Made by a program: the position numbers and the translations under genes. A stretch of DNA of 64,000 nt. It comes from Acidobacteriota bacterium. GTDB taxonomy: Bacteria > Acidobacteriota > Vicinamibacteria > Marinacidobacterales > Marinacidobacteraceae. A model generated the notes under the pieces. It saw only the letters and a program-made list of their open reading frames with translations, was not told the origin of the DNA and ran no database searches. Numbering within the stretch: the first letter of the stretch is position 1; each line of letters begins with the position of its first letter. Of this stretch, positions 5,437-46,367 are shown piece after piece. The DNA lies in the NCBI GenBank assembly GCA_022822745.1, contig JAJEAO010000032.1, forward strand, positions 1 to 64,000. The letters run 5' to 3'.

Positions 5437-6378
5437 ATGCCCCCGCAGCCCGGATCGGAGTCGAGGCGCCACCGCCGGGTCCGCACCGCGATCGCCGCGA
5501 CGATCGGGGCTCTCGGCCTGCTGGCCGCCGCGCCGATCCTCCAGCAGACCTACCAGTTCCGGGTCACGGTGGACCTGATCTCGCTCAACGTGACCGTCAC
5601 CGACGCTCGGGAGCGGTTCGTGACCGATCTCCTCGAAGAGGACTTCACGGTGTACGAGGACGGCATTCGCCAGGAAATCGCGGCGTTCTCCCACGAGGAT
5701 CTTCCGATCCGGATGGTGCTGCTCCTCGACACCTCGGCGAGCATGGTGGACAAGATGCAGTTCGCCCACGAAGCGGCGGTGCGCTTCACCCGCACCCTCC
5801 GGGAGGAGGATGTCGCCCAGATCGTCGAGTTCGGCAGCCAGGCGCATGTCCTGCAGCGGTTCACCGCCGACCACGAGATGCTGGAGCGCGCCATCCGGAT
5901 GACGCAGGCCGGAGGAACGACGAAGCTCCACAACGCCATGTACATCTCGCTGCGGTCGCTGGAGCGCCAACGCATGGAGGCCCGTCGCCAGGCGATCATC
6001 CTGCTGTCCGACGGTCGCGACACCAGCTCGCTCGTGACCTTCGAGCAGGTGCTGGAACTGACCAAGGACACCGACGTCGTGATCTACACGATCTCGCTCC
6101 AGAACACCGCCCGTCGCCGGGGACGACGGTTCTCCGAAGCCGAACATGTCCTCAAGAACCTCGCCGAAGAGACCGGCGGCCAGTGGTACTTCCCCGCCGA
6201 GCTCGCCGAGCTGGATTCGGTGTACGACCGGATCGCCGAGGAACTCAAGAGCCAGTACAACGTCGGCTACATCTCGAACAACCCCCGCCAGGACGGCGCC
6301 TGGCGCCGGATCGTCGTCCAGACGGCCCGACCCGACGTTCGCGTCCGCACCAAGCTCGGCTATTACGCGCCAGGCTGA
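5437..6378 (+). CDS. VWA-domain secreted protein (VWFA-related, Acidobacteria type)
   Basis: 313 residues from ATG 5437, with a basic N-terminus then a hydrophobic stretch (AIAATIGALGLLAAAP), so secreted or membrane-anchored. After a short beta-rich module with VTDARERFVTDLLEEDF comes a von Willebrand A domain with the MIDAS motif DTSAS (LLLDTSASMVDKM near residue 94). The arrangement resembles the VWFA-related domain that is abundant in Acidobacteriota proteomes; its function is unknown but likely metal-dependent protein binding outside the cytoplasm. An alternative ATG at 5413 would overlap the divergent mogA start, so the downstream ATG is preferred. Confidence 0.85.
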   Translation: MPPQPGSESRRHRRVRTAIAATIGALGLLAAAPILQQTYQFRVTVDLISLNVTVTDARERFVTDLLEEDFTVYEDGIRQEIAAFSHEDLPIRMVLLLDTSASMVDKMQFAHEAAVRFTRTLREEDVAQIVEFGSQAHVLQRFTADHEMLERAIRMTQAGGTTKLHNAMYISLRSLERQRMEARRQAIILLSDGRDTSSLVTFEQVLELTKDTDVVIYTISLQNTARRRGRRFSEAEHVLKNLAEETGGQWYFPAELAELDSVYDRIAEELKSQYNVGYISNNPRQDGAWRRIVVQTARPDVRVRTKLGYYAPG

Positions 6379-6413
6379 TCGGCGTCGCTCCCCCGGGACG
6401 CTCCGCCTTCTCC

Positions 6414-43032: not shown

Positions 43033-46000
43033 ATGAAACCGACTCCCAAGCTCCGGCGCGCCGTCGAGGACTACTTCCGCGAGCTGGCGCGGCTGCGCGC
43101 CACCGGCGGGGCGACCCGGGAGCTGTCCACGTATCCGCCGCTCGTGAACCTCCTGAACGCCGTGGGCGGCGCCCTGAAGCCCAAGGTCTTCTGCGTTCAG
43201 GAACTGGCGGACCAGGGCGCCGGCCACCCCGACGTCGGGCTCTACACCTCGGGGCAGATCCAGCAGGGCCAGCCGCTTCCCGGGCAGATACCGGAGCGAG
43301 GCGTCGTGGAAGTCAAGCCGCCGGAGGACGATCTGGACGGAGTGGCGGCGGGAGATCAGGTCCTTCGCTACCAGTCGCGTTACCGGCTGGTCCTGGTCAC
43401 CAATCTCCGCGAATTCCGACTCGTGGGCTCCGGCCCGGGCGGCGAGGCGAAGACGCTCGAGAAGTGCGAACTGGCCAGGAACGCGTCGCAGTTCCATCGC
43501 CGGCTGGGGAAGCCCAGGGCCTTCGCCCGGGACGCGGGCCCTCGTCTCGTCGAATACCTCGTCCGCGCGCTCACGCACCGAGCCGCGATCGCCGAGCCGA
43601 AGGATCTCGCGTGGCTCCTCGCCTCCTACGCTCGCGACGGCCTTTCACGGGTCGAAGCCGCGGATGAAGGCGCGGCGCTCGAACCGCTCCGCAAGGCGCT
43701 GGAGGAGGCGCTCGACATCCGATTCGAGGGCGCACGGGGGAAGCGGCTCTTCCACTCGACCCTGGTGCAGACCCTCTTCTACGGCATCTTCTCGGCGTGG
43801 GTGCTGTGGGTTCGATCCAACCGCGAGACGTCGGGCTTCGACTGGCGGACGGCGGCGTGGCACCTGCGCGCTCCGGTGCTCCGGGCCCTCTTCCAGCAGT
43901 TCTCCGGTCCAGGGAATCTCCAGTCTCTCGGCCTCGTCGAGGTGCTCGACCAGACGGTGGGCGCGCTGGAACGGGTGGATCGAAAGGCGTTCTTCGCGCG
44001 CTTCCGCGAAGGCGAGGCCGTCCCCTACTTCTACGAGCCGTTCCTCGCCGCCTTCGACCCGGGGCTCCGCAAGCAGCTCGGCGTCTGGTACACGCCGAAC
44101 GAGATCGTCCGCTACATGGTCGCGCGGGTGGACCGGGCCCTGAAGGACGACCTTGGCATCCCCGACGGGTTGGCCGGCGACCAGGTCCATGTGCTCGACC
44201 CGTGCTGCGGGACCGGCGCCTACCTGGCCGAAGTCCTCCGCCGCATCGCGCGGAATCTGGAGAGCAGGGGACTCGGCGCTCTGGTCGGGGCGCAGGTGAA
44301 GGATGCCGCGACGAAGCGGGTCTCCGGCTTCGAGATCATGCCCGCGCCGCTTGTAGTGGCTCATCTGCAGGTCGGTCTCACGATGGAAGAGCTGGGAGCG
44401 CCGCTCTCCGACGGGGATGACGAACGGGTCCGGGTCTTCCTGACAAACGCGCTCACCGGGTGGGAGAAGAAGGGGACGAAGTCGTCCCTGTTCCCCGAAC
44501 TCGCTGAAGAGCGGGAACGAGCCGAGCGCGTGAAGCAGAAGACGCCGATCCTCGTCATTCTCGGCAACCCGCCCTACAACGGTTTCGCCGGGATGGCGGA
44601 GCAGGATGAAGAGCGGAAGCTCACCACGGCCTACCGAAAGACGAAGCAGGCGCCTCCTCCGCGGGGGCAGGGCCTGAACGATCTCTACGTCCGGTTCTTC
44701 CGCGTGGCGGAGCGCCGGATCGTGGAGGGGACGGGGCGCGGGATCGTCTGCTTCATCTCGAACTACTCGTGGCTGGACGGCCTCTCGTTTCCCGGGATGC
44801 GCGAGAGGTACCTGGAAGCCTTCGACCTCGTTCGAGTGGACAATCTGCACGGCGACCGGATCATTTCCGAGTACGCCCCGGACGGGCAGACCAGCGAGAC
44901 CGTCTTCGCGCTGCCCGGACAGTCGCCTGGCATCAAGATCGGGACCAGCATCACCCTGCTGAGCCGATCCCGTGGCTCGACGAGCAACCGACCCGCCACC
45001 GTCCTCTATCGCGACTTCCATGAGGCGAGAGCGGACGCGCGACGTCGCGCTCTGATCCACAGCCTCAGCGAGCCTCGTATGGACTCCGAATACACAGTCC
45101 TGGAGCCGAAACTGGAGCTCGGGCTTCCCTTCAAGCCGATGGCAGTGAGTGAAGACTGGTTCGACTGGCCATCATTGCCCGAGCTGTTCCCGGTGTCGTT
45201 TCCCGGAGTGAAGACAAGCCGCGACGGCTTTCTGGTCGATGTGGATCTGGACCGGCTGAAGACTCGGGTCGAGGACTACTTCGACAAGAGTCTGAGCCAC
45301 GAGGAGATCGCCCGTCGCTATCCGAGCGTAATGAAGGGCAGCGCCCGGTATCGAGGGAGAGCGACGCGGGACGCGCTGCTCAGGCGAGGTGGGCCCACGG
45401 AAGCTGGGTGGGCGCGCTTTGCGTACCGGCCGTTCGATACGCGCTGGCTCTACTGGGAAGCGGAAACCGATCTCCTCGACCGGAAGAGGGCCAACTACCG
45501 ACCCCACGTATTCCCCGGGAACTTGTGGCTGTCAGCCGGTCAGCATCTCCGGAAAGGAGCGGCCGAGCCGCAGGCAGACTTCACCACGAGTATCGGCTCT
45601 CTTCACGTGATGGAACGAGGCGCCAACTGGTTTCCTGGCTGGCTCTACAACAGCGCGATGGCCACCGGCAGCATCAGGCGGCGACCGAATCTCAGCTCGA
45701 CAGCGAAGCGCTACCTGAGTCGCATCGGGTGCGACACGTCGGACCTCTTCCATCATGTGCTTGCCACGCTCCACGCTCGTGCCTATCGGACCTCCAACCG
45801 TGGAGGCCTCCGCATGGGCTGGCCGCGGATCCCGCTGCCGGGCTGGCCGGATGGGCGAACTGAAGGCGCGACGGAACAGCTTCGAGCATCGGCGGCGCGG
45901 GGCCGCGAACTGGCGCGGCTGCTGGATCCCGATACTCCCGTCCCTGGGGTCACGGAAGGGGCACTCCGTCCGGAGATGGCCTCGATCGCCGTCCCCACCA

Positions 46001-46367
46001 CGGTGGACGGTAGCAACATGACCGGGGCCGACTTCGCCGTGACCGCCGGATGGGGACACTTCGGGGCGGGCGACGCGGTCATGCCGGGAACCGGCCGTGC
46101 AGTAAGGTCAGCCCCCCCCCCGACGCGACACAAACGGGCACATCCAAGTGGACTTGGGACATATGGCGCATCGACCGTGCTCACTGGCGGAACGTCCCCG
46201 ACGCGGTCTGGAACTACCGCCTCGGTGGCTACCAGGTGCTGAAGAAGTGGCTCTCCTACCGCGAACGCCGGGTTCTGAAGCGACCCTTGAAGCCGGAAGA
46301 GGTCCAGCACTTCACCGATACCGCCCGCCGCATCGCCGCCATCCTGCTGCTCACGACCAGGCTCTGA
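43033..46367 (+). CDS. Type IIG/ISP-like restriction-modification enzyme, frameshifted at a C10 tract
   Basis: Single-chain nuclease-methyltransferase of about 1110 codons. N-terminal PD-(D/E)xK-like nuclease with GVVEVKPPEDD (E93, K95); adenine-methyltransferase motif I LDPCCGTGAYLAEVL at 388 and catalytic NPPY at 512-515; the C-terminal half is the type ISP-like target-recognition part (FAYRPFDTRWLYWE, then VTAGWGHFGAG). At 46112-46121 ten C shift the frame: as read, translation leaves the family sequence and stops at 46240-46242 after about 40 foreign residues. The +1-nt frame (stop 46365-46367) carries the expected ending AHWRNVPDAVWNYRLGGYQV. One extra C, or two fewer, would restore it. 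ATG 43033 is chosen; ATG 42997 would add twelve residues. No separate specificity or helicase gene nearby. Confidence 0.82.
46112..46121 (+). repeat. Homopolymer C10 inside the restriction-modification gene
   Basis: Ten consecutive C at the exact point where the reading frame must change to keep the family C-terminus. It is the longest C run I noticed in the window. Either a phase-variation tract or a base-calling error. Confidence 0.75.

Follow-up and report, generated by a model that had tools for sequence, protein, structure and literature searches.

A poly-C tract at the frame split of a type IIG restriction-modification gene, a probable phase-variation switch in a genome with repeat tracts in several defense genes

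The split restriction-modification gene

The window (the whole stretch of DNA that was analyzed, 64,000 nucleotides in length) carries a homopolymer of ten C residues, C10, at positions 46112–46121 of the forward strand. An earlier sequence-only reading had placed the tract there, and inspection of the sequence confirmed the position. C10 is inside a long open reading frame (ORF) that starts at either ATG 43033 or ATG 42997 and ends at 46242, and the reading frame of the gene changes exactly at the tract. Upstream is a 1,026-residue body (43033–46121, forward strand), which is open through C10, and one frame away is an 81-residue tail that, with its stop codon, occupies 46122–46367 of the same strand. 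The tail expected for the protein (DATQTGTSKWTWDIWRIDRAHWRNVPDAVWNYRLGGYQVLKKWLSYRERRVLKRPLKPEEVQHFTDTARRIAAILLLTTRL) is encoded at 46122–46364 in the +1 frame and is followed by the stop codon at 46365–46367. Translation of the gene as assembled would proceed past C10 through approximately 40 unrelated, out-of-frame codons to a stop at 46240–46242. Apart from the split at C10, the gene has no stop or frameshift across its approximately 3.3 kb.

C10 encodes Pro-Pro-Pro, and the addition of one C, or the removal of two, would join the frames of body and tail, as the sequence-only reading had correctly stated, with about 81–85 residues affected. A change in unit number would shift the gene between its full-length and truncated frames, and the tail is open and conserved after C10. 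Simple-sequence-repeat phase-variable restriction-modification (RM) genes are recognized by tracts that are intragenic and, for homopolymers, longer than eight units, and C10 is a tract of this kind.

The body had matches to the Pfam models N6_Mtase, Eco57I and Type_ISP_C. Near its N-terminus we assigned by eye a candidate PD-(D/E)xK nuclease motif (43225–43317, forward strand), made up of HPD at 43225–43233 and EVK at 43309–43317, whose P, D, E and K residues were invariant in 22 homologues (P61, D62, E88 and K90 of homologue L003). An N6-adenine methyltransferase core was identified at 44029–44307, forward strand (PF02384, residues 333–425), with an NPPY motif further on near 44567. The first part of a type ISP C-terminal specificity domain is at 45181–45840, forward strand. 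The match of this domain to its model was split, with model positions 1–223 of PF18135 found in the body (95.8 bits) and positions 279–320 found only in the +1-frame tail (34.9 bits). In the predicted structure of L003, the tail comprises the end of the specificity domain, a beta-hairpin and two terminal helices.

Its sequence and the structure predicted for L003 identify the enzyme as type IIG and DrdV-like, with nuclease, methyltransferase and specificity functions in a single chain. A candidate nuclease motif, an N6-adenine methylase and a specificity domain were found in one chain with no helicase, and PADLOC returned a match to REase_MTase_IIG (277.6 bits). The best fold match for the predicted structure of L003 (mean pLDDT 76) was DrdV (7lo5/7lvv). 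DrdV likewise has nuclease, methylase, specificity and C-terminal domains and was the best match along the chain among solved structures, but its identity to the window enzyme is only approximately 19%. We know of no phase variation in DrdV.

Enzymes of type ISP, such as LlaGI and LlaBIII, have an SF2 helicase-translocase and an ISP coupler between the nuclease and the methylase. The Pfam models ResIII, DEAD, Helicase_C and ISP_coupler had no match in the window enzyme, and a strict type ISP identity was rejected as the helicase and coupler are missing. The window enzyme shares with LlaGI and LlaBIII (PDB 5ffj and 4xqk) the methylase and C-terminal specificity domains but differs in lacking the helicase and coupler. 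A paralogue in this genome, on contig C68, matches all four of these models and belongs to type ISP in the strict sense.

Conservation of the tail and variability of the linker

The sequence-only reading had held that the tail expected for this family is encoded one frame away from the rest of the gene, with the switch point at C10. This was borne out by the split of the Type_ISP_C match and by the homologues, as body and tail were in one frame in all 38 loci that held both (37 from other genomes and L048 from the same family). The tail showed no less conservation than the body, with a mean identity of 68% compared to 62% for the body among 31 homologues, and its identity to that of L048 was 88%. 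Such conservation of the part downstream of the tract is that of a sequence under selection, as would be the case if the full-length (ON) state were used. We conclude from it that the gene is not an old pseudogene and that selection kept it full-length up to a recent point, or continues to do so in some members of the population.

C10 is located within a linker (46099–46160, forward strand, as delimited by alignment with L048) whose length varies strongly among homologues. Compared to L048, the linker was diverged and 19 nucleotides shorter, while the DNA on either side was well conserved. None of the 38 loci had a C10-like tract, and the longest C or G run in the segment was six. A uniform C10 in all relatives, which the sequence-only reading had named as contradicting a switch, was thus not what the relatives carried, as they were without a tract at this site. 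In the same linker of homologue L045, near 6350–6400 of that locus, there is a short palindromic insertion (GTAGGGGCGACGCATGCGTCGCCCC), and from its sequence it may be another sign of the linker tolerating insertions.

The conservation of the tail also bears on the possibility that the split is a recently fixed frameshift in a decaying gene, the first step of a pseudogene. Some homologues elsewhere are clearly decayed, such as L044, which is in several frames. The window gene has a single lesion, situated at its only long homopolymer, its tail is still conserved, and five other defense genes of the same genome contain repeat tracts, most of which coincide with frame splits. Taken together, these observations make gene decay a highly improbable explanation of the split.

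Repeat tracts in defense genes of the genome and its family

Considered alone, C10 was not significant by shuffling, because dinucleotide shuffles of the GC-rich window produced a mean of 1.35 C10 matches. The tract is expected by chance in one window of this size, and we rejected its composition as evidence in itself. C7 matches in the window were approximately four-fold depleted compared to the same shuffles (10 observed vs. 38.8), and genome-wide the C/G runs away from contig ends dropped steeply, from 21 of length 8 to 2–3 of length 9. Based on this depletion and steep fall-off, the five interior runs of 10 or longer in the genome (10, 10, 11, 12 and 24) represent an excess. The genome-wide counts covered C/G runs of 8 or more, A/T runs of 8, and GCCA and CT repeats; runs closer than approximately 150 bases to a contig end were excluded, apart from one C9 that was retained as a control.

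Four of the five interior tracts are in defense genes, namely those for the window enzyme, two type III Mods and SspB. Of the C8–9 control runs only one of 24 was in such a gene (Fisher p = 0.001), an SspH-like gene on contig C53 that was the lone defense-like control. The 19 coding controls were scanned with PADLOC, and the intergenic and near-end ones were taken as non-defense. The longest tract, a C24 on contig C10 (10076–10099; L054 4077–4100), splits a DUF4007/SspB gene that is followed by SspC. The C12 on contig C11 does not disrupt the frame of the type III Mod gene that contains it, which is preceded by a ResIII helicase gene, and the C10 on contig C53 apparently leaves the frame intact in a second type III Mod, beside its Res. 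The other run of ten is that of the window enzyme, on contig C65. The fifth tract, a G11 on the reverse strand of contig C100 (L058 1201–1211), leaves the frame of its short gene unbroken; this gene belongs to a run of three, is without a family match and was treated as non-defense in the census.

We also noted that the three-gene run on contig C100 may be a previously undescribed defense operon. In addition, similar short A-rich sequences (TGACA-n-AAA or near to it) are directly 5′ of the tracts in unrelated genes (L055, L057, L220 and L221), where the encoded peptides include VTQNAPPP and VTESAPPP; this similarity could be chance or a trace of how the tracts originated.

Repeats of other units were found in further defense genes of this genome. 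A (GCCA)12 repeat on contig C68 (62023–62070; L232 8024–8071) splits the specificity domain of the true type ISP enzyme, which has an Mrr nuclease, a helicase, a coupler and a methylase, such that positions 2–106 of the Type_ISP_C model are matched before the repeat and positions 129–340 after it in another frame. It was the only GCCA repeat of five or more units in 10 genomes of the family. On the reverse strand of contig C19, a (GA)17 repeat (L261 6711–6744) splits a type I HsdM gene that has HsdS downstream; HsdM is cut after PACLWFVAR, and its conserved continuation (LFMDARRLGRMLDRTHRELT) is in another frame. All three of the (CT)9 or longer tracts in the 10 family genomes were in RM genes, these being type III Mods in genomes G001 and G003 and the HsdM of this genome. 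Seven other methylase-like loci of this genome had no long homopolymer, dinucleotide or tetranucleotide repeat. In the systems other than the window enzyme, the repeat was located in the subunit essential for modification (Mod, HsdM, SspB or the single-chain ISP enzyme).

In the wider family, homologues of the contig C11 Mod carry G11, (CT)13, (CT)16 or (CGTC)5, and the frame changes across each of these tracts. The tract-bearing type III Mod homologues are L220 and L221 (genomes G003 and G004), L222 and L219 (G001), and L262 (G003). G11 is at an identical Mod site in two species, whose Mods have a mean column identity of 90% and a divergent stretch in mid-Mod, as would be expected for a swapped recognition domain. 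The (CGTC)5 repeat adjoins an assembly gap, and three further Mod homologues had no tract and appeared continuous. Judged from the sequences, error would be a poor explanation for the repeated emergence of unlike repeats in the Mod family, and selection for switching would be expected to produce it. The recurrence of different repeat units in one gene class favors selected phase variation and disfavors sequencing error.

From the other family genomes, we counted only runs in clean homologous genes. In the assemblies of G002–G009 (e.g., L173, L176 and L181), many poly-C/G runs are beside N gaps, contig ends or short duplications, and most were rejected as support because of this artifact-like setting. 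These runs are probably artifacts of two-color poly-G sequencing, and caution is warranted in homopolymer surveys of such assemblies. As a separate observation, a TonB-dependent receptor gene with a Plug domain in genome G001 (L145 3077, contig C225) has a G12 where its frame is split, and its product is possibly a phase-variable surface protein or phage receptor.

The possibility that C10 is itself an assembly or sequencing error, with the real tract being a stable C11 and the gene intact, counts against a switch. The genome is a fragmented draft with poly-C/G runs at contig ends, a single-base error in a run of ten C is plausible, and there are the likely poly-G artifacts in the assemblies of relatives. 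An error would not account for the concentration of repeats in defense genes, and GA, CT, GCCA and CGTC units cannot arise from poly-G chemistry. Moreover, the DNA on both sides of the linker is clean and well conserved, and a true C11 would still be prone to slippage. Based on these points, we consider error a very unlikely explanation.

A further possibility is that the ribosome or the RNA polymerase slips on the C run, which would yield some full-length enzyme with the DNA unchanged. The frames overlap openly around the run, and a one-base slip would produce the full protein. This explanation is extremely improbable, as the di- and tetranucleotide units in the other defense genes are ill-suited to one-base slips and the homologues have no conserved slippery site.

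A candidate phase-variation switch and its implications

Based on the sequence evidence, C10 is quite likely a phase-variation switch of the RM enzyme. The suggestion of a phase-variable RM gene in the sequence-only reading gained support from the C, G, GA/CT, GCCA and CGTC tracts in type I, type III, ISP and IIG genes and in SspB. Beyond the draft state of the genome and the chance expectation of such a tract in one window, two further points count against it: the tract is conserved in no homologue of the window enzyme, and at ten units C10 is near the lower end of the usual switching lengths (8 or more in the cited work). We infer a change of tract length in the population, a loss of activity at C10 and a selective reason for switching from a comparison based on one genome per species.

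In the mechanism we propose, slipped-strand mispairing during replication would add or remove C units. In-frame lengths, such as C11 or C8, would give a full enzyme that methylates and restricts its target (ON), with an in-frame linker that gains a few prolines. At C10, as assembled, the chain would lose the end of its specificity domain and would probably neither methylate nor restrict (OFF). With nuclease, methylase and recognition combined in a single chain, a cell that loses the enzyme by switching would be spared cuts in its own DNA.

An alternative for the short form is that it remains active and reads a different target, such that the tract switches specificity. The tract falls inside the specificity domain, toward the C-terminus of the protein, and there are precedents in the second homopolymer of H. 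pylori JHP1272 (PMC3936762) and in HsdS of NgoAV (PMC7394358). Yet all homologues have a strongly conserved counterpart of the missing tail, and the other split genes (SspB, HsdM and type ISP) lose larger essential parts. As the lost part is predicted, from the model of L003, to include a beta-hairpin and both of the helices that end the C-terminal domain, we favor a short form that is inactive rather than altered in specificity, and consider a specificity switch unlikely.

The mechanism itself is already known from pathogens, in which switching of type IIG enzymes by poly-C or poly-G tracts is established (PMC3936762; PMC4889913). H. pylori JHP1272 (HP1353-HP1354) is likewise a single-chain type IIG enzyme with a poly-C tract, one that encodes PPPP and switches it ON or OFF (PMC3936762). 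It differs in having a second tract that changes specificity, whereas the single tract here is in the linker before the last approximately 80 residues; it is also from an unrelated lineage. C. jejuni Cj0031 also has a homopolymer in a type IIG gene, with only some alleles of the family carrying the tract, and its ON state restricts phages (PMC4889913). Its tract is poly-G and its host an AT-rich pathogen, in which population variation and phage restriction have been measured. Among type III mod genes 17.4% contain repeats, as do about 10% of type I systems, environmental species included (PMC7394358). The phasevarion mod and hsdM genes described there and in the surveys it cites have the same design as the Mod and HsdM genes found in this genome and among its relatives, in which C, G, CT/GA or CGTC tracts coincide in most cases with a frame split. 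Here, though, the tracts are placed mid-gene or toward the 3′ end, and the lineage is sparsely sampled.

The apparent novelty lies in the lineage, in how widely the tracts are spread over the defense systems of a single genome, and in SspB and a type ISP enzyme being among them. A limited literature search, with the main surveys of type III and type I repeats outside it, found no earlier report of a phase-variable SspB or type ISP system. From their sequences, the SspB split by C24 and its SspC are a candidate phase-variable phosphorothioation defense system, and if this is true we know of no earlier phase-variable phosphorothioation or type ISP system. SspB and the type ISP enzyme would thereby be added as candidate switches.

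Most of the known phase-variable restriction systems come from host-adapted pathogens, and their role has been interpreted as gene regulation. For this uncultured high-GC lineage, we hold it an evenly balanced possibility that much of its DNA-modification immunity (type I, two type III, IIG, type ISP and SspBC) is under independent random switches, built from three or more repeat units in this genome and from additional ones among relatives, and that repeats evolved repeatedly at tolerant linkers. C10 would be one of at least six switches in defense genes, and a population would be a mosaic of ON and OFF immune states that would hedge its bets against phage and foreign DNA. If this is true, six genes would give up to 64 immune states. 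It would also serve as a warning that frameshifted defense genes in metagenome assemblies are not to be dismissed as errors or pseudogenes. With several kinds of slippery repeat found almost only in defense genes, bet-hedging against phage would be directly testable in this lineage.
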